Part shown: positions 3,894 through 22,722 of the stretch, in pieces
How the letters are laid out: every line of letters begins with the position of its first letter
Numbering within the stretch: the first letter of the stretch is position 1
Assembly: GCF_013337185.1 (NCBI RefSeq)
Contig: NZ_SWDE01000001.1
Location: 1,550,001-1,614,000, forward strand
DNA: 64,000 bases
Direction: 5' to 3'
Source of the DNA: Serratia proteamaculans
GTDB lineage: Bacteria > Pseudomonadota > Gammaproteobacteria > Enterobacterales > Enterobacteriaceae
Notes under the pieces: model-generated
What the model was told of the DNA's origin: nothing
The model's database searches: none
What the model saw: only the letters and a program-made list of their open reading frames with translations
Program-made: the position numbers and the translations under genes

Positions 3894-4142
3894 TTATTTA
3901 TACAAGTCCGCCGTACCGTAGACATGATTGTTGACGGTGACAGAAGTGATGCGATAGCCACTCGCCCCTTGTTGCCTTGCATCGGCAGCAATTGACTGCT
4001 CAAAGTCATTTAACGTTGACGCCTGGCTGGAAACCACGCCAATTTTTTGCAGTTGCTGAGCGTTTTCCGCAGTTACCGGCGCGGCAGCCAATACTGCCCC
4101 GCTGATGCAGGCCAATACCACGGCCAGGATAAGGTTTTTCAT
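3894..4142 (-). CDS. BhsA/McbA/YdgH-like small periplasmic stress protein (DUF1471)
   Basis: This is an 82-residue exported protein: a signal peptide (about residues 1-20, ending AVLA) precedes a small DUF1471 domain. The domain motif is the run from QKIGVVSS through the final TADLYK. The family (BhsA/YcfR, YhcN, McbA) consists of stress-induced envelope proteins linked to peroxide, acid, biofilm and chlorine responses. ATG at 4142 has a GTGAGG site; longer in-frame starts read through non-signal sequence. It is last in a leftward unit, 62 bases after the MxKDx gene and before a terminator, so it is probably co-expressed with the redox module. Confidence 0.85.
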   Translation of the reverse strand: MKNLILAVVLACISGAVLAAAPVTAENAQQLQKIGVVSSQASTLNDFEQSIAADARQQGASGYRITSVTVNNHVYGTADLYK

Positions 4143-4204
4143 GATAAACACCTCACTATTGTTGAAAAGACCGGCGACCCAAGCCGCCGGAGTTGGCACG
4201 GGGT

Positions 4205-4510
4205 TTATTTCCCCATCGCATCTTTTTTCATTTCATCTTTCTTCATGCCGTCTTTGGCCATGCTGTCTTTTTTCATAGCGTCATGTTTCATCGCATCCTT
4301 ACTCATGCTGTCTTTCTTCATGCAATCCTTGCTCATGCAGTCTTTCTTCATGGCGTCTTTTTTCATGCCATCTTTAGCCATGCCGTCATGAGACATCTGG
4401 CCCATGTTGTCCTTTTTCATCGAGTCCTTACTCATGCTGTCTGCAGCATTGGCACCGATAGAACCCAACATCAACGCACTGCACATCATCACTGCGAATA
4501 ACTTTTTCAT
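4205..4510 (-). CDS. methionine-rich MxKDx pentapeptide repeat protein, exported
   Basis: This 101-residue precursor has a signal peptide of about 22 residues (MKKLFAVMMCS..ANA). The mature part, about 79 residues, is almost entirely tandem pentapeptides of the form xMxKD. It holds 16 methionines (about 20%), many Lys and Asp, and two repeats carrying Cys. The repeat is a recognised family (pentapeptide MxKDx, TIGR02953) without an assigned function in this organism. ATG at 4510 follows a GAGAAGG site. It lies 59 bases downstream of an MsrP-like molybdoenzyme gene on the same strand. A role as a sacrificial oxidant sink whose Met sulfoxides the enzyme reduces is my inference; metal binding by Met/Asp/Cys is an alternative. 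Confidence 0.9.
   Translation of the reverse strand: MKKLFAVMMCSALMLGSIGANAADSMSKDSMKKDNMGQMSHDGMAKDGMKKDAMKKDCMSKDCMKKDSMSKDAMKHDAMKKDSMAKDGMKKDEMKKDAMGK
4208..4444 (-). repeat. 15-base tandem repeat array encoding MxKDx pentapeptides
   Basis: The mature-coding part of the gene is built of about 14-15 degenerate 15-base units (GAT-GGC/AGC-ATG-AAA-AAA type on the coding strand). The units vary at the fourth base of the plus-strand tcttt/tcctt pattern and at the x codons. The array is in frame, so unit gain or loss would change only length. Confidence 0.85.
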
Positions 4511-4569
4511 GGTATTTCCTTCTCTCATTTAAAAAGCACCTGTGTGCCGGGGGATAGTTGTGGCCGCCG

Positions 4570-5358
4570 TTAACTGCCACCAAACCAGTTGTAACCTTGG
4601 TCTTCCCAGTAACCGCCGGGAAAACGATTGGTGACTTCAATCACCTGAATATGTTTCGGATTCTTGTAGCCGAGCTTGGTCGGCATGCGCAGCTTCATCG
4701 GATAGCCGTATTTTCGCGGCAGGATTTGGCCGTCGTAGGTCAGCGCCATAATGGTTTGCGGATGCAGCGCCGTGGCCATATCAATGCTGGTGTAGTAATC
4801 GTCGGCGCATTTAAAGCTGACATATTTGGCGCTCAGGTCTGCGCCGACCGCCTGGAGAAACTCCGCGAACGGCACTCCGCCCCATTTGCCAATAGCGCTC
4901 CAACCCTCTACGCAAATATGGCGAGTCACCTGGCTGATTTGCGACATCTTGTGCAATTGCGGCAGCGTCCAGGGCTGCTTATTCAGCACCAGTCCGTTGA
5001 CCTCCAGCCGGTAGTCGTTACCATTGATCTCCGGTGCCTGCTCCTCGGCATAAAACGCGTTGAACGGAAACGGACGGGTGATCATCGACTCGGCATACAC
5101 CGGTGCCAGATGGTCGGCATTGAACAGCCAGCCCTGTACCCGGTCGTTAAACCGCGATATGCGGTTCAGCGCCTGTTCGACATTGGCGTTGTCGCTGATG
5201 TCACACCCGGTGAGCATCGCAATACCGCCCAATGTCAGTCCGTTGCGCAGGAAGCGACGACGCGAAGAGGACTCCAGCTGGCGTGCCAGCAGCTGCTGCG
5301 CTTCCCTGACTATCTCCCGCCCTTCGCTCAGGCTTATTGGGTCTTTTTCTGTTTTCAT
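4570..5358 (-). CDS. Tat-exported molybdopterin oxidoreductase, MsrP/YedY-like (copy A)
   Basis: This is a 262-residue sulfite-oxidase-fold protein. The twin-arginine motif SRRRFLRNG is at residues 32-40, followed by a hydrophobic stretch ending in a lipobox-like LTGC at 49-52. The molybdenum-ligand cysteine is Cys149 in RHICVEGWSAIGKWGG. By family it should be a periplasmic reductase or dehydrogenase such as the methionine sulfoxide reductase MsrP. It is shorter than E. coli MsrP (334), so the substrate is uncertain. ATG at 5358 has a GGAGAG site. It lies 10 bases after its cytochrome b partner and upstream of the Met-rich protein. A close paralogue is at 21955-22722. Confidence 0.9.
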   Translation of the reverse strand: MKTEKDPISLSEGREIVREAQQLLARQLESSSRRRFLRNGLTLGGIAMLTGCDISDNANVEQALNRISRFNDRVQGWLFNADHLAPVYAESMITRPFPFNAFYAEEQAPEINGNDYRLEVNGLVLNKQPWTLPQLHKMSQISQVTRHICVEGWSAIGKWGGVPFAEFLQAVGADLSAKYVSFKCADDYYTSIDMATALHPQTIMALTYDGQILPRKYGYPMKLRMPTKLGYKNPKHIQVIEVTNRFPGGYWEDQGYNWFGGS

Positions 5359-5368
5359 CAGGCTCTCC

Positions 5369-5980
5369 TTAACGTCCACGCAGCATGGCCAACAGCGTGC
5401 GTGGCACCAGCGCCACCATCACCAGATGTACCACCACAAAACCCACCAGCCCCGACATGGCAAAAAAGTGGATGTACCGCACTGTGTCATAGCCGCCGAG
5501 CAGGTCACGCAACAGAGGGAATTGCACCGACTTCCACAACACCAGGCCGGAAAGCACCATTACCACGCTGGCAACCATCACAAACAGATAGGCCGCCCGT
5601 TGCACCATGTTGTAATGGCGCAGGTCGTTATGGCCGAGCTTGCCCCGCAGCGCCGCCAGTAAATCGCCGAGCAGGGCTTTCGGGCTGAGCGGCCAGAATT
5701 TGCGTTTCAGCCGACCACTGAACAAATTAATCAGCAGATAACACAGCCCGTTAATCCCAAACAGCCACATGCCGGCAAAGTGCCACTGCAGTGCGCCACC
5801 CAACCAACCACCCAGCGTCAGTTCATTGATAAAGCTGAAGTTAAACAGTGGCGAAGCGTTATAGATGCGCCAACCGCTGGTGACCATAATCAGCATCGCC
5901 AGCGCATTCAACCAGTGCGTCAGGCGCAGCCACAGCGGATGGATCAGCGCGGGTTTTTCCGGCGTAACAGACATATCCAT
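5369..5980 (-). CDS. cytochrome b561-type membrane subunit (copy A)
   Basis: This 203-residue integral membrane protein has four hydrophobic segments. Candidate haem histidines are in LTHWLN, QWHFAGMW, RYIHFFAMSG and VVVHLVMV. By analogy with MsrQ/YedZ and other b-type partners it should pass quinol or flavin electrons to the adjacent periplasmic molybdoenzyme. ATG at 5980 follows GGAGAG; in-frame codons further upstream belong to the promoter region. It is first in the leftward four-gene unit and divergent from the two-component system. A paralogue is at 20067-20684. Confidence 0.9.
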   Translation of the reverse strand: MDMSVTPEKPALIHPLWLRLTHWLNALAMLIMVTSGWRIYNASPLFNFSFINELTLGGWLGGALQWHFAGMWLFGINGLCYLLINLFSGRLKRKFWPLSPKALLGDLLAALRGKLGHNDLRHYNMVQRAAYLFVMVASVVMVLSGLVLWKSVQFPLLRDLLGGYDTVRYIHFFAMSGLVGFVVVHLVMVALVPRTLLAMLRGR

Positions 5981-6040
5981 GGAGTCTCTCCTGACGTTAG
6001 CGGTTTCGATGTACTGAGTATCCGTCTGATTTGTTCCCCA

Positions 6041-6111
6041 AGACCTCACGCAAAGTTAAATAAAATGTGATAACTCCGGCCCTGCGGGTTGTGTAGACTT
6101 CAATCAGGTCT
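6041..6111. promoter_or_regulatory. candidate response-regulator half-sites, module A
   Basis: The 151-base divergent region holds AGACCTCA (6041-6048), AGACTTCA (6095-6102) and TCAGGTCT (6104-6111). The last two form an imperfect inverted repeat. These repeated octamers are candidates for binding by the neighbouring OmpR-type regulator; no direct evidence. Confidence 0.35.
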
Positions 6112-6131
6112 GGCAATCAGCGGTGAGAAGA

Positions 6132-6845
6132 GTGGAAAAGCCAAAGAAAATTTTAATCGTCGAGGATGACGGCAACATCGCAGAGCTGCTGCAATTACAT
6201 CTGCGCGATGAAGGCTATGACATCAGCCATGCCGCCGATGGCAATCTGGGCATGGCCATGCTGGAACAGGGCGGCTGGGATGCACTGATCCTCGACCTGA
6301 TGCTGCCGGGCATTGACGGGCTGGAGATCTGTCGTCGGGCACGCAATATGACGCGCTATACGCCAATCATTATTACCAGCGCGCGATCCAGCGAAGTGCA
6401 TCGCGTCCTGGGATTGGAACTGGGCGCTGACGACTACCTCGCCAAGCCCTTCTCGATGCTGGAATTGGTGGCCAGGGTCAAGGCGCTGTTTCGCCGCCAG
6501 GAGGCGATGAGCCGCAACCTGCGGATGGACGCCGGCACCCTGAGTTTCGACGGGTTAACCATCGATCCGATTGCCCGAGAAGTGCATTTGAACCAACAGA
6601 ATGTCGATCTGACGCCGCGTGAATTTGATCTGCTGTATTTTTTTGCCAAACATCCCGGCAAGGTATTTTCCCGCCTCAGCCTGCTCAATCAGGTCTGGGG
6701 TTATCAGCACGAAGGTTACGAGCACACGGTGAACACTCACATCAACCGGCTGCGCATCAAGATCGAAACCAACCCGGCGGAACCCGAGCGCATCCTCACG
6801 GTGTGGGGCATGGGCTATAAATTCGCGGCTATGCCGCAAGAGTAA
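6132..6845 (+). CDS. OmpR/PhoB-family response regulator (module A)
   Basis: This DNA-binding response regulator has about 237 residues. The receiver domain starts with the acidic pair in VEDDG and has the phospho-acceptor Asp near residue 55 (LILDLMLPG) and the lysine in AKPFS. The C-terminal winged helix ends with the family pattern around HINRLRIKIE and VWGMGYKF. I chose GTG at 6132, where GGTGAG is suitably spaced; GTG at 6123 would add three residues but lacks a site. The kinase gene starts three bases after its stop. The divergent placement suggests it controls the cytochrome b/molybdoenzyme/Met-rich operon. Confidence 0.9.
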   Translation: MEKPKKILIVEDDGNIAELLQLHLRDEGYDISHAADGNLGMAMLEQGGWDALILDLMLPGIDGLEICRRARNMTRYTPIIITSARSSEVHRVLGLELGADDYLAKPFSMLELVARVKALFRRQEAMSRNLRMDAGTLSFDGLTIDPIAREVHLNQQNVDLTPREFDLLYFFAKHPGKVFSRLSLLNQVWGYQHEGYEHTVNTHINRLRIKIETNPAEPERILTVWGMGYKFAAMPQE

Positions 6846-6848
6846 ACC

Positions 6849-8312
6849 ATGAAAAATCTTACGCTAACGCAACGTCTGACCCTGATCTTCGCCCTGTTGA
6901 TGGTAGTCAGCTGTGCCATCTCCGGCTGGATGCAGGTGCGCAGCAGCACCCAGTACAGCCAGGCGGTGATCCAACGGCTGTCCGGCAATCTGGCGCAGCA
7001 CATTGCCGACAGCAACCCGCTATTGGGGCAAAACGGCCTGAACCCGCAGTCGGTGCAAAGCCTGTTTGGACAACTGATGGCGGTGAATCCCAGCGTTGAG
7101 GTTTATCTGCTCGATAAGCAGGGCGAGATTATCGGCAACGCCGCACCGGCAGGTCACCTGAAGCGACAAAAAGTGAGCCTGCAGCCGCTGCAAGCACTCT
7201 TCAATGGTGCCAATATGCCGATTTACGGCGATGACCCGCGCAATCCGGAGGCCAAAAAGGTGTTCAGCGCCGCGCCACTGAAGGTCAACGGTCAGGTTGA
7301 GGGCTATCTGTACGTGGTATTGCTGGGCGAGGAGTACGATACGCTGACCAGCTCTGCCTTGCATAACTCCGCGGTCTCCATGGCACTGTGGACGTCGGGC
7401 CTGATGGTGCTGTTCAGTCTGGTGGCCGGTGGTTTTGCTTTTTATTGGGTGACACGACCTATCCGTCGTCTTACACGCCAGGTCAGTGAGCTGGACAGCG
7501 GTGGCATCGCGGCGGTGCAAGCCTATGCGGCGCTGCCGGCCGAAGGCGGTCGTGATGAAGTCAGCCGACTGCAACAAGCGTTCAGCAGCATGGCGCAACG
7601 TATAGCCGAACAGTGGCAGACGCTTTCGCAGCAGGATCAGCAACGCCGCGAGTTCATCGCCAATATCTCGCACGATCTACGCACCCCACTGACTTCGTTG
7701 CACGGCTACCTGGAAACGCTGTCGGTTAAATCGGCCAGCCTGAGCGAAAACGATCGCCAACGTTATCTGGAGATTGCGCTGGCGCAGAGCCGTAAGGTCG
7801 GCCGATTAGCGCAGGAACTGTTCGAGCTGGCGCGGCTGGAATATGGCGTAGTGAAACCGCAGAAAGAGCCGTTCTCGCTCAGTGAATTGGTGCAGGACGT
7901 GTTTCAGAAGTTTGAATTGGCGGCGGAAGCTCGCCAGCAACGGTTGCTGGCGGACATCGCCCCCGGCATTCCGTTGGTGTTTGCCGATGTCAGTATGATT
8001 GAACGGGTGCTGACCAACCTGCTGGATAACGCCATCCGCCACACGCCTCAGGGCGGTGAGATCGAGGTCCGCCTGTGGCAACAGGCGGGCAAGGTGCTGG
8101 TACAGGTTAATGACAGTGGCCCGGGTATCCCACAAGAACTACGCGCCGATCTGTTTGTGCGCCCTTCTATTCTCAGCAGCGCCCGCCGCCATGCCAGCGG
8201 GCTGGGGTTGATGATCGTGCGGCGTATCTTGCTGCTGCACGACAGCGATATCCAATTGGTCGAGCGGCCACAAACCGGTGCCTGTTTCCGCTTTTCGATC
8301 CCGTTACGCTAG
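6849..8312 (+). CDS. sensor histidine kinase (module A)
   Basis: This 487-residue inner-membrane kinase has TM1 at about residues 8-28, a periplasmic sensor domain to about 175, TM2 at 178-200, then HAMP. The HisKA domain has His275 in ISHDLRTPL. The ATPase domain has an N box NLLDNAIRHTP and G1 box DSGPGIP. The expected F-box (F-x-RFYR-x-D) is replaced by LFVRPSILSSARRHA, while the later GLGLMIVRR motif is intact. The kinase is translationally close to its response regulator. The periplasmic signal is unknown. Confidence 0.9.
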   Translation: MKNLTLTQRLTLIFALLMVVSCAISGWMQVRSSTQYSQAVIQRLSGNLAQHIADSNPLLGQNGLNPQSVQSLFGQLMAVNPSVEVYLLDKQGEIIGNAAPAGHLKRQKVSLQPLQALFNGANMPIYGDDPRNPEAKKVFSAAPLKVNGQVEGYLYVVLLGEEYDTLTSSALHNSAVSMALWTSGLMVLFSLVAGGFAFYWVTRPIRRLTRQVSELDSGGIAAVQAYAALPAEGGRDEVSRLQQAFSSMAQRIAEQWQTLSQQDQQRREFIANISHDLRTPLTSLHGYLETLSVKSASLSENDRQRYLEIALAQSRKVGRLAQELFELARLEYGVVKPQKEPFSLSELVQDVFQKFELAAEARQQRLLADIAPGIPLVFADVSMIERVLTNLLDNAIRHTPQGGEIEVRLWQQAGKVLVQVNDSGPGIPQELRADLFVRPSILSSARRHASGLGLMIVRRILLLHDSDIQLVERPQTGACFRFSIPLR

Positions 8313-17192: not shown

Positions 17193-18617
17193 TTAATCTG
17201 CAGCGGGAAAAATCAGACTAAAGGTGATCCTGGAGGTGGTATTCCCTTCGGCACACTGGGCACGACTAACCCCGCCGTGCAGCGTCATGATTGCGCGGAC
17301 GATTGCCAGCCCCAGACCACTGGCATGGCTGCCGGCACTGCGGGCTGCATCGGCGCGGTAGAAACGGTCGAACAACTTGTCAAGATGAGCCGGGGCAATC
17401 GCTGGCCCCTGATTAACCACCTGCACAACCACTTCGCCAGTCTGCTGATTGAGGGTTTGCAGCAATATCTGGCTGTTCTCATCGGCATAACGCACCGCAT
17501 TGGCCACCAGGTTGCTCAATGCACGCTGGAACAACATGGCATCCGCCAGCAATGGCCCTGCGCCCTGGCACACCAGCGTAATACCGCGCTCTTCCGCCAG
17601 GCCTTCAAAATAATCAGCCACCCGTTGCAGCTCATGCGCCATATCAAGGCGACTGAGGTTCAGTACTGCTTGCCCTTCGCCGGCACGCGCCAGGAACAGA
17701 ATATTTTCTACCATGCGCGAAATGCGTTCCAGCTCATCCATATTGCTCGACAACAGGGTTTCATACTCTTCCACGCTGCGTGACTGATACAACGCCACCT
17801 GACACTGCCCCATTAGCGCGCCCACCGGAGTCCGGATCTCGTGCGCCAGATCGGCGGAAAACTGCGTCAGACGTTGATAGCCTTCGTTCAGCCGATCGAG
17901 CATGGCATTAAACGAACGTGTCAGTTGCTGCAATTCCTTCGGCGCCCCCTGCTCGCTCAGGCGAGTCGACAGCGTGTTCGGCGTAATTACCGCCGCCTGC
18001 GCCGCCATGCGCCATAATGGCTGCAACCCACGACGCATCACCCAATACCCCAGCAATGCAATCAACACAAACGCCATCGCCACCGCGGCCACAATCCGCC
18101 AAAGATAACGCGCCAGCATCTTCTGTTCATTGACCAACACGTGTGCGGCCGAGATTTGCAGCAGGCGGCCGTCCTCCAGTTTGACCAACGCCGATACGGC
18201 CCGCAGCGGCACGCCTTGTGGCGTTTGCCCACCGTGCACCGCGCTCAAGCGCTGCGGCGTGCCAACCGGCGTCGGCACTATCGCCGGCAGACTCAGCCTG
18301 GCCGGGTTAACGTTGATTAACGGTTTTTGTCCCGGTAGCTGAAAAATCAGTACGTCCTGTTCGTTACCCAGCATATTTTCGAACAGGCCGGTATTCGCCG
18401 TCAGCCGCTCGAGAGGAAAGCGCTGGCTCAGCAAATGGCGAAAATACTCCACCCGTCCGGTGACCTGTAAATCGCTGCGGATAGTCATCTCCTGACGCAT
18501 CGCGCCATACAGGTACCATCCCGCGCCACTAACCACCAGTGCCGCCACCAGCGCAAACAGCATCGCGCTGCGCAGCGTTAACGACAGCGCCCGCCAGCGT
18601 TGGGCCAAAGCCTTCAT
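17193..18617 (-). CDS. CusS/HprS-like sensor histidine kinase (module B)
   Basis: This inner-membrane kinase of about 474 residues has TM1 near residues 15-38, a periplasmic domain to about 170, TM2 near 175-195 and HAMP. The H box [11 protein letters not shown] has His near residue 259. An N box ([11 protein letters not shown]), a complete F-box [13 protein letters not shown] and GLGLAIVR follow. It belongs to the heavy-metal/HprS class. ATG at 18617 overlaps the regulator stop by four bases (ATGA); a TTG 15 bases earlier is less likely. E. coli HprRS controls msrPQ, which fits the divergent cytochrome b/molybdoenzyme genes here. Confidence 0.9.
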
Positions 18618-19285
18618 GAACGCGGCTCGCAAACGTAGCCGATGCCGCGCACGCTGTGGATCAGCTTGACGTCAAATGGCCGATCAATCTTGGCACGTAG
18701 CCGCTTGATCGCCACATCCACCACGTTGGTATCGCTGTCAAAGTTCATGTCCCAGACCTGCGAGGCGATCATGGTGCGTGACAGCACCTCCCCTTCGCGA
18801 CGCACCAACAGGTGCAGCAACATGAACTCTTTGTTGGTCAGCGGGATCACCTGTTCTTGCCGTACCGCTTTGCGGCGCAGGACGTCGAGCTGCAGATCGG
18901 CAATCGCATAGTGGTCGGCCTCGCGTACCGTGCCGCGCCGCAATAGCGTGCGCAATCGCAACACCAGTTCAGTGAAGGAAAAAGGTTTGATCAGATAATC
19001 ATCGGCCCCCAGCTCCAGGCCATGAATACGATCCTGCACCCCGTCGCGAGCGGTCAGAAACAGGATCGGCACGTCGCTTTTCTTGCGCAGCACCTCAATG
19101 ATCTGCCAGCCATCCAGCCCTGGCAGCATTACGTCGAGCACAATGGCGTCGTAGGCATCTTCAAGCGCCCGAAACAGGCCGTCGGTGCCGTTACGCGCCA
19201 AATCTACGCTGTACCCGGCCTCGCCCAGCCCTTTCTTCAGGTAATCACCCGTGCTGATGTCGTCTTCAACTACCAATATCCGCAT
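18614..19285 (-). CDS. CusR/HprR-like response regulator (module B)
   Basis: This OmpR-family regulator has about 223 residues. It has the acidic pair in VVEDD, phospho-acceptor Asp51 (LDVMLPG), Lys in IKPFSF, and a C-terminal winged helix ([23 protein letters not shown]). ATG at 19285 is eight bases after GAGG; the GTG at 19294 sits on that site. It is first in the leftward two-component unit, divergent from the module B structural genes. A CusR-type palindrome lies in the shared promoter region. Confidence 0.92.
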
Positions 19286-19340
19286 TATCGCCACCTCATT
19301 ACACCAGCCGAAATATTAGCAGCTTCGGCAGACCTGCTTG

Positions 19341-19425: not shown

Positions 19426-20052
19426 ATGATTACCCGTCATCGTTTTGCCGGTTTACTGCTGTCCACCCTGATGCTGTGCAGCGGAGCCGCCGCTGCGGCT
19501 CAAACGCCAGGGAAAGTGATTGCTCCACTGCGCGGCACTATTGATCAAGTGACCGACAGCAGCCTGCAGGTTACCGACCGTAAAGGGGAGAAGGTCAATG
19601 TCAAACTCAACGATCAGACGAAGGTGCTGAGCGTTTCAAAAGGTACGCTCGATGACATTAAACCGGACAGCTTTATCGGCACCGCTGCGGTACCCCAAGC
19701 GGACGGCAGCCTGAAAGCGTTGGAAGTCCACGTCTTCGCCGCCAGCCTGCGCGGCACCGGTGAGGGCCATTCGGCCTGGGAATCGGCCGACGGCAAGGTG
19801 GATACCATGACCAACGGCACCGTCGGTAAACTGGTTAAATCCAACGGCCGTACTCTGACCGTGACCTACGGCAACCAGCAGAAAACCGTTAACGTGCCGG
19901 AAGATGTGCCGATCGTGACGCTCGATCCCGGCGATCGCAGCCTGCTGAAACCCGGCGCGCACATCGTGTTGTTCTCCGCCACTGACGATAAGGGCGAACG
20001 CGTCGCCACCCGCATTTCTGCCGGCAAAGACGGCACCGTTCCACCGATGTAA
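19426..20052 (+). CDS. exported protein of unknown function with two OB-like repeats (DUF5666-like)
   Basis: The 208 residues include a signal peptide of about 25 residues (ending AAAAA). The mature part has two similar beta-rich segments. The first runs from GTIDQVTDSSLQVTD to KVLSVSKGTLDD, the second from GTVGKLVKSNGRTLTV to PGAHIVLF. I do not know a function; resemblance to DUF5666-type periplasmic domains is a pattern judgement. It follows an AGAGGAGA site and is 14 bases upstream of cytochrome b copy B, so it belongs to the module B operon. It takes the promoter-proximal position and is not Met-rich, unlike the small protein of module A. Confidence 0.8.
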   Translation: MITRHRFAGLLLSTLMLCSGAAAAAQTPGKVIAPLRGTIDQVTDSSLQVTDRKGEKVNVKLNDQTKVLSVSKGTLDDIKPDSFIGTAAVPQADGSLKALEVHVFAASLRGTGEGHSAWESADGKVDTMTNGTVGKLVKSNGRTLTVTYGNQQKTVNVPEDVPIVTLDPGDRSLLKPGAHIVLFSATDDKGERVATRISAGKDGTVPPM

Positions 20053-20066
20053 CTCGGGAGTCGATG

Positions 20067-20684
20067 ATGAAAACCAACGCGCCGCGACCGGTGCACCGCT
20101 GGCCGGTACGCCTTACCCATTGGATTAACCTGTTCGCCATGGTCTGCATGTTCATGAGCGGTTGGGAAATCTACAACGCCTCACCGCTGTTCGGCTTTCG
20201 CTTTCCGCCGCAGGTCACGCTCGGCGGTTGGTTGGGGGGCGCGATTGGTTGGCATCTGGCGGTCATGTGGCTGCTGGCAGGCAACGCGCTGTGCTATTTC
20301 CTGTGGAGCCTGTTCAGCGGCCATTTTCGACGCGATCTGCTGCCGCTCACCGCCGGTAAGTTACGGCGTGATATCTGGCAGGCGTTAACGCTGCGACTAA
20401 AGCATCAACACGGCCGTTATAACGCCATTCAAAAGCTAATGTACCTCGGCGTACTGGTTCTCGGGTTGTTGCTGGTGCTCTCCGGGCTGGCAATCTGGAA
20501 ACCGGTGCAGCTACAAGGGCTGGTCAGCCTGTTCGGCGGTTTTGATATCGCGCGTTATGTGCACTTTTTCGCGATGTCCGGCATTGGTTTATTTGTGGTG
20601 ATCCACCTGCTGATGGTGATGATCGTGCCGCGCACGCTATGGGCAATGATTACGGGTGGCAAGCTTGACTGCTCCCCGCCCTAA
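20067..20684 (+). CDS. cytochrome b561-type membrane subunit (copy B), C-terminus altered by an insertion
   Basis: This paralogue of the 5369-5980 gene has about 205 residues with four membrane segments and the same histidine motifs (LTHWIN, GWHLAVMW, RYVHFFAMSG, VVIHLLMV). It is the expected electron donor to the downstream molybdoenzyme. The last six codons (L-D-C-S-P-P) and the stop are read from the end of an inserted element; the original C-terminal tail is lost. The core fold should be unaffected. ATG at 20067 is six bases from GGGAG; ATG at 20064 is also possible. Confidence 0.88.
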   Translation: MKTNAPRPVHRWPVRLTHWINLFAMVCMFMSGWEIYNASPLFGFRFPPQVTLGGWLGGAIGWHLAVMWLLAGNALCYFLWSLFSGHFRRDLLPLTAGKLRRDIWQALTLRLKHQHGRYNAIQKLMYLGVLVLGLLLVLSGLAIWKPVQLQGLVSLFGGFDIARYVHFFAMSGIGLFVVIHLLMVMIVPRTLWAMITGGKLDCSPP

Positions 20685-20716: not shown

Positions 20717-21847
20717 CTAAGCCGCTTGATGCGATTCAGGATTTACAGACTCTCCGTGGGCTAACGCTGCCAGCCCGGCAGCTTTTATATTCCGTGCCGC
20801 ATTAATGTCACGGTCATGGCTTGTCTGACATTCCGGACAATTCCATTTACGAACATCAAGAGGTAATTTTTTCATGGTGAAGCCGCAACAACTACAACGC
20901 TTTGAGGACGGGAAAAACGGGGCAATTGCGACCAGTGAACGCCCGCCCCATTCAGCCTTGTATGCGAGCTGGCGCACAAACTCGCCCCAGCTTGCATCGG
21001 CTATCGCTTTCGACAGCTTAGGGTTGCGGATCATGTTCTTCACTTTCAGGGATTCAACGCAAACAACTTGGTTATCGTTAATCAGTTTGCGGGACAACTT
21101 GTGCAAGTTATCCATGCGGCAATCGGCAATTTTCGCGTGGAGTCGGGTCACCTTCAAGCGGGCTTTAGCGCGGTTTTTCGAACCTTTCGCTTTTTTGCTT
21201 AAACGGCGCTGAAGTAGCGCCAGGCGAGCCGCGTATTTAGCGGTATGGCGGGGATTGCCTTGTTTAAATCCAGTGTCAGTAACGAACAAATCCTTTAAGC
21301 CCACATCAATGCCCACGGTTTTAGCGGAAATGGGCAGTGATACAGGTTCAAACTCGCACAGACAGGAAATGAAATATCGTCCGGCTGCATCTTTGGAAAT
21401 AGTGACGGTTGACGGCACGGAGGGGAGTTCACGGCTCCAGCGCACGTCCAATGGGGCTTTGCTCTTAGCCATATGCAGCTTGCCATCACGATATTTAAAC
21501 GCGCTGGCGGTCAATTCAGCGACCTGTTTGTGGCGTTTGCTTTTGAATGCGGGATATTTAGCCCGACCTGCAAAAAAGTGAGAAAAGGCCGTCTGTTGGT
21601 GGCGTAGCGATTGTTGCAAGGGGACACAGGAAACGTCATTGAGCCATGCGCATTCAGGCTCTTTTTTAAGCGCGGTTAACCGCGCATTAGCTTGCAGATA
21701 GCCGATCTTCTCCTGGCGTTCATAGTAAGCATCAGTACGCCAGCGAAGGATTGAATTATAGACAAAACGCACACAGCCGAACGTTTGAGCCAAAAGCTCA
21801 ACCTGATCGGCTGTTGGATAGAATCGGTATCTGTAAGCGCGTTTCAT
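20717..21847 (-). CDS. tnpB: RNA-guided endonuclease TnpB
   Basis: This 376-residue OrfB/TnpB protein has an N-terminal helix-turn-helix-like region (MKRAYRYRFYPT start, typical), then a RuvC-like nuclease. The catalytic residues are Asp181 (GIDVGL), Glu265 (VESLK) and Asp347 (HDRDINAARN). A zinc finger of Cys318/Cys321 and Cys337/Cys340 sits between them. All key residues are present and the frame is intact. ATG at 21847 begins the family-typical N-terminus; a longer reading to 21985 would run through the element end. Such nucleases help retain the element by cutting empty sites next to a target motif. It is antisense to the host operon. Confidence 0.95.
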   Translation of the reverse strand: MKRAYRYRFYPTADQVELLAQTFGCVRFVYNSILRWRTDAYYERQEKIGYLQANARLTALKKEPECAWLNDVSCVPLQQSLRHQQTAFSHFFAGRAKYPAFKSKRHKQVAELTASAFKYRDGKLHMAKSKAPLDVRWSRELPSVPSTVTISKDAAGRYFISCLCEFEPVSLPISAKTVGIDVGLKDLFVTDTGFKQGNPRHTAKYAARLALLQRRLSKKAKGSKNRAKARLKVTRLHAKIADCRMDNLHKLSRKLINDNQVVCVESLKVKNMIRNPKLSKAIADASWGEFVRQLAYKAEWGGRSLVAIAPFFPSSKRCSCCGFTMKKLPLDVRKWNCPECQTSHDRDINAARNIKAAGLAALAHGESVNPESHQAA

Positions 21848-21954
21848 ATGTACAAAATTACAGGAGCTATCGTGAAAAGACAAAAAGAAGTTAGCTCGAA
21901 AACCGCCTCCTTTCCTCCCCGGCCTGAAGGCCGAGGTTTCCCGGAGGCACTCTG

Positions 21955-22722
21955 ATGAGTGATAAAAAACAGCGCCCTGCGGCACCCACGTTGGAGCCGG
22001 CGCAAAAGAAACAATTGGTCAATCTGCAGCGCCGCCTGATGCTGCGCTCCGGCCTGACCCTGGGCGGCATCGCCATGCTGAGCGGCTGCAACCTGCAGGA
22101 CGGCGATCAGGTCGATAAAGTGTTGTGGGCAATGTCGCGCTGGAACGATCGTGTGCAGGCCTGGCTGTTCAGTGGCCAGAAGCTGGCGCAAACCTATCGC
22201 CCGGATCAAATCACCCATCCCTTCCCGTTTAACGCGTTTTATCCCGAGTACAACGTGCCGGAAGTGGATCTGGCCAGCTATCAGTTGGAAGTCTCCGGCA
22301 AGGTAGAGAAAAAAGCGCCCTGGACGCTGGAACAGCTGCAGCGCCTGCCACAGCAAAGCCAGATAACCCGTTTGATCTGTATCGAGGGCTGGAGCGCCAT
22401 CGGCCAATGGGGCGGCGTGCCGCTGCGCAACTTCCTGCAGCACGTCGGGGCGGATCTGAACGCGCGCTATGTTGGCTTCAAATGCGCAGACCGTTATTAC
22501 TCCAGCATCGACATGGCCACCGCGCTGCATCCACAGACCATTCTGGCGCTGGATTTCGGCGGCAAGGCGCTGCCGGCAGATTACGGCTACCCGCTAAGGC
22601 TGCGGGTACCCACCAAGCTGGGGTTCAAGAACGCCAAACATATCGCCGCTATTTTTGTCAGTGATACCAACCCCGGCGGCTACTGGGAAGATCAGGGTTA
22701 TAACTGGTTCAGCGGTATTTAG
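21955..22722 (+). CDS. Tat-exported molybdopterin oxidoreductase, MsrP/YedY-like (copy B)
   Basis: The 255 residues form a sulfite-oxidase-fold protein paralogous to 4570-5358. It has a twin-arginine pair at residues 26-27 (LQRRLMLRSG), a lipobox-like LSGC at 42-45 and the molybdenum-ligand Cys142 (LICIEGWSAIGQWGG). The C-terminus GGYWEDQGYNWF is nearly identical in both copies. ATG at 21955 has an excellent CGGAGG site directly beside the inserted tnpB element. Transcription from the module B promoter must now cross 1.28 kb of antisense tnpB, so expression may be reduced. The substrate is unproven. Confidence 0.9.
   Translation: MSDKKQRPAAPTLEPAQKKQLVNLQRRLMLRSGLTLGGIAMLSGCNLQDGDQVDKVLWAMSRWNDRVQAWLFSGQKLAQTYRPDQITHPFPFNAFYPEYNVPEVDLASYQLEVSGKVEKKAPWTLEQLQRLPQQSQITRLICIEGWSAIGQWGGVPLRNFLQHVGADLNARYVGFKCADRYYSSIDMATALHPQTILALDFGGKALPADYGYPLRLRVPTKLGFKNAKHIAAIFVSDTNPGGYWEDQGYNWFSGI

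Follow-up and report, generated by a model that had tools for sequence, protein, structure and literature searches.

Which task would fall to a compact set of envelope genes that places a methionine-rich protein beside a molybdoenzyme in Serratia proteamaculans, and has such a set been described before? We addressed this question for a locus near the left end of a 64,000-nucleotide stretch (hereafter the window; contig NZ_SWDE01000001.1, positions 1,550,001 to 1,614,000) of a 5.28 Mb genome. Its leftward genes encode a cytochrome b, a short MsrP/YedY-like molybdoenzyme, an exported MxKDx repeat protein and a BhsA-like protein, and its rightward genes encode a response regulator and a histidine kinase. 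A preliminary description of the locus proposed a periplasmic oxidant sink built of four co-oriented genes, with a type of control not known to be described. Judged from its gene content and conservation, we consider it quite probable that the locus represents, in Serratia, the periplasmic methionine-redox systems of the MrpX/BcrXQP/OrhKR type. The core of this system is already described in Escherichia coli and Brucella, and the last gene varies among Serratia species.

The MxKDx protein and the molybdoenzyme occur together

The products of all four leftward genes score above the cut-offs of a family profile (TIGR02953, PF00174, PF01292 and PF07338; Table 1), and the divergent two-component system lies beside them. 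With likely ATG starts for the MsrP-like enzyme (5358), the MxKDx protein (4510) and the BhsA-like protein (4142), the gaps of 10, 59 and 62 bases between the genes are reproduced. The MxKDx protein has 101 residues, and a recount after a 22-residue signal peptide (cut placed by us) gives 16 methionines and two cysteines in 79 mature residues.

The preliminary description had proposed a co-occurrence search as a check, and its outcome was clear. Across 295 Enterobacterales genomes, the MxKDx model TIGR02953 gave 13 matches at E <= 0.001, seven of them above its cut-off, and the short MsrP-like enzyme was found at E <= 1e-40 in seven genomes. These are the identical seven (G000, which holds the window, and G112, G140, G208, G228, G238 and G276), with the two genes adjacent in 7/7; the loci of the weak MxKDx matches in the other six genomes hold no enzyme. 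The pairing exceeds chance, and as the seven genomes are related, it stands for fewer than seven independent events. Among 30 Serratia genomes, the module (module 1) is present in 24, and the regulator, cytochrome, enzyme and MxKDx genes are all kept in 24/24 of these loci. Two genomes (G299 and G310) carry only a sister copy, described below, and four small genomes carry neither.

Counterparts in E. coli, Brucella and Azospira

The same elements in the same order, a divergent two-component system, a cytochrome b, an MsrP-like enzyme and a methionine-rich peptide, make up orhK/orhR and c3566-c3567-c3568 of uropathogenic E. coli, where the two-component system controls the set, OrhR binds the promoter and mutations in c3564-c3567 cause sensitivity to tert-butyl hydroperoxide (PMC8550376; this and the other papers are cited for the portions of their text available to us). 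Against E. coli locus L013, a counterpart chosen by layout and not strain CFT073 itself, the window shows identities of 67% (regulator), 49% (kinase), 63% (enzyme) and 58% (cytochrome), with an operator of the same form. The surroundings differ: the E. coli genes share a transcript with haemolysin genes in a pathogenicity island (PMC8550376), whereas those in the window lie between what appear, from the open reading frames, to be a betT-like gene and a fimbrial cluster, with the BhsA-like gene behind. The methionine-rich proteins of two E. coli loci fall just below the TIGR02953 cut-off (38.8 and 35.2 versus 41).

In Brucella, bcrXQP with bcrS/abcS is induced by hypochlorous acid (HOCl) and its deletion causes HOCl sensitivity; BcrX is described there as a protein with MXKDX repeats and as a homologue of the peptide from Azospira (PMC8315932). 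This HOCl-responsive set shares with the window an MXKDX protein, an MsrP-like enzyme and a cytochrome, and differs in its extracytoplasmic function (ECF) sigma/anti-sigma control, where the window has a two-component system. Azospira mrpX-yedYZ with sigF/nrsF, in which the peptide and a YedY-type enzyme carry out periplasmic methionine cycling (PMC4623255), likewise differs in its sigma-factor control; its nearest relative in our set is an Azonexus locus (L041) with an MxKDx protein above the cut-off and an NrsF anti-sigma factor. As both the orhK/orhR set and Brucella BcrX are published, the novelty claimed for the locus fails: the E. coli genes already join a methionine-rich protein of this kind to a two-component system, and the Brucella MXKDX set under ECF control weakens the claim further.

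A variable fourth slot

The BhsA-like protein belongs to the wide family PF07338 and misses the BhsA equivalog model (Table 1). The preliminary description counted its gene as part of the system, which the distribution does not bear out: it is present in 2/24 Serratia module-1 loci (L108, the window's own, and L111) and in 1/80 loci of a wider scan described below (L014, itself Serratia). The BhsA-like gene is not core to the system and is an optional tail. The weak point of the proposed four-gene unit is the terminator-like hairpin at 4190-4171, before the fourth gene. Such hits are no commoner here than in shuffled sequence (3 found, mean 2.4), but the same stem precedes the BhsA-like gene in all three loci having one there, so that co-transcription of the fourth gene is uncertain.

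In 16/24 Serratia loci the position of the BhsA-like gene is taken by a member of the DUF417 (RclC) family (for example L119, 2696-3166), an assignment checked by profile on two of the 16: these score 125 and 122 bits for PF04224 (cut-off 27), and 89.3 and 87.6 bits for the RclC model NF040476, below its cut-off of 275. Every Serratia genome in which DUF417 matched at all (16) has a copy in the slot, and seven further DUF417 genes lie elsewhere. The remaining 6/24 loci showed neither a BhsA-like nor a DUF417 gene, and a hairpin follows MxKDx. In E. coli, RclB (DUF1471) and RclC (DUF417) both protect from hypothiocyanous acid (HOSCN) by a mechanism that is described as remaining to be determined (PMC12096828), and RcrB, also DUF417, is required for HOCl resistance in uropathogenic strains (PMC9600549). 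The fourth slot is thus filled by the same two families, and differs from the Rcl set in that the slot proteins miss the RclB and RclC equivalog cut-offs and no RclA-like gene lies in the unit. In the available portion of PMC9600549, RcrB and the methionine-rich peptide are handled as separate systems, and our literature search, within the text it reached, returned no paper linking the DUF1471 or DUF417 families with a methionine-rich operon.

The BhsA-like gene may be unconnected with the oxidant system and expressed on its own, a possibility from which we lean only a little away. It would fit the hairpin before the gene, its rarity in the Serratia loci, the 16 PF07338 domain matches in the window's genome, which make such genes common, and a promoter-like match at 4168-4141 that is no better than those in shuffles. 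Set against it is the occupation of the same slot by DUF417, to which RclC belongs; in E. coli, RclC is partnered by RclB, a DUF1471 protein (PMC12096828).

The enzyme and its neighbours in other genomes

The nearest solved relative of the enzyme is YedY (1xdq), and its cysteine aligns with the YedY cysteine that we take to be the molybdenum ligand. Among the matches listed, the closest enzyme with a named source is that of Serratia sp. Ag1 (88%). As in canonical MsrPQ, a PF00174 enzyme is joined to a membrane haem protein. The window enzyme, however, reaches 82.8 bits against the NCBIfam MsrP cut-off of 207 (the genome's true MsrP scores 511), its partner matches PF01292 with the MsrQ family PF01794 absent from its matches, and it carries a lipobox; by these profiles it is not a canonical MsrP. 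A lipobox pattern (loose, and scored without a control) follows the twin-arginine pair in 88/88 enzymes, which makes the enzyme a probable lipoprotein, anchored in the membrane. Neither PMC8550376 (E. coli) nor PMC8315932 (Brucella) gave such a statement when searched for the words lipobox, lipoprotein and twin-arginine. A selenocysteine, suggested by one TGA in seven Serratia enzyme genes, was rejected: in the six inspected it is codon 5 of an over-long query, just 5' of the true ATG.

To examine relatives outside the Serratia set we took the best 80 of 590 confirmed matches from one scan of genome contigs, a sample that therefore leans to close relatives. The gene beside the enzyme is methionine-rich (as called by a sliding-window rule) in 68 loci and DUF5666 in seven, with both in none and neither in five. 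Of these five, L022 and L064 end at a contig edge, L065 has MsrA, L067 has MsrA and MsrB, and L077 has nothing. The rule fired twice in 624 kb of outer locus parts, once in a second module copy (L030). MsrA or MsrB lies near the core in 17/80 loci, none of them among the seven DUF5666 loci, and by our reading of their N-termini these proteins are probably exported; predicted-exported MsrA and MsrB have been noted before in perchlorate islands (PMC4623255). Together, the conserved adjacency, the MsrA/MsrB neighbours and the published E. coli and Brucella mutants point to methionine-sulfoxide chemistry. In this respect the preliminary description is supported, both in its idea of an oxidant sink and in the parallel it drew with MrpX.

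Regulators, classed by identity cut-offs of our own, are OrhRK-like in 22 of the 80 loci, ECF with anti-sigma in 19, ECF at a contig end in one and a second two-component type in four. The types are scattered over the enzyme tree, and the combination of OrhRK with a methionine-rich gene needs nine changes, at least seven of them forced by starred branches, in counts that unrecognised regulators inflate. The module is also found on plasmids (L008, 3723-7714, and L009, 6397-8127). Of the matching places in E. coli genomes, 75/365 are plasmid-borne, and in Yersinia ruckeri a plasmid has the genes for cytochrome b, the enzyme and MxKDx close to IS6 transposases. A record titled Chryseobacterium (L023) holds an enterobacterial-type module placed next to Enterobacter in the enzyme tree, and its assembly is probably mislabelled or mixed.

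A conserved operator and candidate redox residues in the sensor

The OrhRK-like loci number 25, namely the 22 above, two E. coli loci and the window. Scored as TCAC[AG]-N15-TGTGA, one 25-base site lies in the divergent region of 25/25 loci, with at most one mismatch in 24 and two in L025; 55 of about 1.016 million positions over all loci reach the score of the 24. The published OrhR site is TCACA-N15-TGTGA (PMC8550376), which L013 matches exactly. With a fuller consensus and up to three mismatches, the window site is the sole match in its genome. The unit thus appears to have a dedicated adjacent regulator with a predicted binding site. Met77 of the kinase is common to 25/25 loci and falls in a stretch read as periplasmic, and inspection of the sequences places a cysteine at position 21 or 22 of the first membrane helix in 25/25 kinases. 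In E. coli HprS, two periplasmic methionines sense HOCl and a membrane cysteine matters for signalling (PMC10151825).

Weighing the methionine-sink reading

Several points weigh against the methionine-redox reading. In the available portions of the E. coli study, oxidant phenotypes are reported for mutants of the regulators, the cytochrome and the enzyme and not for the methionine-rich peptide, and induction is by peroxide rather than HOCl (PMC8550376); the Brucella mutants have no hydrogen peroxide phenotype (PMC8315932). A true MsrPQ is encoded elsewhere in the window's genome, no regulator was recognised in 34/80 relatives (a class that includes contigs ending early), and the loose pattern TCACR-N15-TGTGA occurs at seven places in the genome and at seven in a reversed control. 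The enzyme and cytochrome b could instead form a general repair pair for envelope proteins like MsrPQ, with MxKDx as a minor client or with another task and not the main oxidant sink. We regard this as unlikely: it is favoured by the E. coli phenotypes just mentioned, by YedY as nearest solved relative and by the loci that have MsrA (L065), MsrA and MsrB (L067) or, in seven cases, DUF5666 in place of a methionine-rich gene, and is countered by the methionine-rich gene beside the enzyme in 68/80 loci and in 24/24 Serratia loci. A copper or silver defence, with Cu(I) or Ag(I) bound by the methionine-rich protein, a metal-sensing kinase and a BhsA that limits the entry of copper, is a far weaker candidate, since a kinase match to the heavy-metal sensor model TIGR01386 below its cut-off (165.4 versus 292.55 bits), two cysteines five residues apart in the MxKDx protein of the Serratia loci inspected and the reduced copper permeability given by BhsA in E. 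coli (PMC12096828) are opposed by a unit without a metal efflux gene, by exchange partners that are MsrA/MsrB and HOCl-linked ECF regulators, and by E. coli and Brucella operons that answer to peroxide or HOCl, copper not being among the stressors described in the available portions of those reports.

A sister module with a different partner

Further along the window lies a sister module made of a two-component system, a DUF5666-like exported protein, a further cytochrome b and another short MsrP-like enzyme (Table 1). The sister enzyme is present in 24/30 Serratia genomes; 22 of these also carry module 1, always at a distance of 7 to 17 kb. DUF5666 adjoins it in six other Serratia loci and in two loci of other genera that were checked, and 4/80 loci, all Burkholderiaceae, combine DUF5666 with a regulator 72-74% identical to the sister's. 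Repeated gain of the DUF5666 partner was considered, as the tree puts DUF5666 rows in more than one place; a single clade is not rejected (p-AU, the P value of the approximately unbiased test, 0.086), and we therefore make no such claim. The titles and abstract parts of the literature mentioning DUF5666 contained no link to methionine repair. An IS605-type TnpB gene (PF07282, PF01385, PF12323) lies on the opposite strand between the sister cytochrome b and enzyme (20717-21985); it is missing there in six other Serratia loci checked, in which cytochrome b and enzyme are adjacent.

Table 1. Features of the two modules, in positions of the window.
Feature	Position	Strand	Evidence
BhsA/DUF1471-like exported protein, optional fourth gene	3894..4142	-	PF07338 58 bits (cut-off 27); NCBIfam BhsA equivalog NF047859 82.8 (cut-off 90)
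Terminator-like hairpin, MxKDx/BhsA-like intergenic	4171..4190	-	8 pairs, 7 G-C; count not above shuffle expectation
Exported MxKDx repeat protein	4205..4510	-	TIGR02953 97.1 bits (cut-off 41); 16 Met/79 mature residues
Short MsrP/YedY-like molybdoenzyme; twin-arginine signal, lipobox, Mo-ligand Cys	4570..5358	-	PF00174 103.2 bits (cut-off 24); YedY 1xdq best solved relative
b561-type cytochrome b	5369..5980 (likely ATG 5980; open frame to 6049)	-	PF01292 83.5 bits (cut-off 30.1)
Predicted operator TCACATTTTATTTAACTTTGCGTGA (minus-strand reading), form of OrhR site	6046..6070	.	Site search; published site PMC8550376
OrhR-like response regulator	6123..6845	+	67% identity to E. coli locus L013; PF00072 and PF00486
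OrhK-like histidine kinase	6849..8312	+	49% identity to E. coli locus L013; Met77 common to 25/25
Sister module, second two-component system	17193..19294 (kinase 17193-18632, regulator 18614-19294)	-	
Sister module, DUF5666-like exported protein	19426..20052	+	PF18914 23.1 bits, below cut-off 27; homologues do pass
Sister module, cytochrome b	20064..20684	+	PF01292 84.2 bits
Sister module, second short MsrP-like lipoprotein enzyme	21955..22722	+	PF00174 118.7 bits; 62% to first enzyme

Proposed mechanism and significance

In the methionine-redox system that we favour, an envelope oxidant (HOCl or peroxide) would be sensed by the kinase, perhaps via oxidation of the invariant Met77, with the cysteine of the first membrane helix perhaps contributing to signal transfer. 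Binding of the response regulator to the single operator would then switch on cytochrome b, enzyme and MxKDx. The MxKDx protein would be oxidised instead of other envelope proteins, and the membrane-anchored molybdoenzyme would reduce its methionine sulfoxides with electrons passing from the quinol pool through cytochrome b. The BhsA-like gene, or DUF417 in sister species, may be an optional add-on for envelope stress. More tentatively, the Serratia locus might be an integrated chlorine-defence operon, a methionine-sponge core with an exchangeable last gene from the Rcl accessory families (DUF1471 or DUF417), and the enzyme core might serve as a base on which periplasmic client and sensor can be exchanged, as the DUF5666 of the sister module would suggest. 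Our literature search did not find the variable slot, the lipobox in 88/88 enzymes, the sensor methionine in 25/25 kinases or the sister module with DUF5666 instead of a methionine-rich protein.

These results extend an oxidant-defence operon of uropathogenic E. coli to 24/30 of the Serratia genomes searched, and conservation singles out one dedicated operator, an enzyme predicted to be a lipoprotein and sensor residues that are candidates for a redox role. The variable slot offers a handle on RclB- and RclC-family proteins: if the integrated chlorine-defence operon is real, the shared slot would mean that DUF1471 and DUF417 proteins have their target, an envelope oxidant, in common with the methionine sponge.

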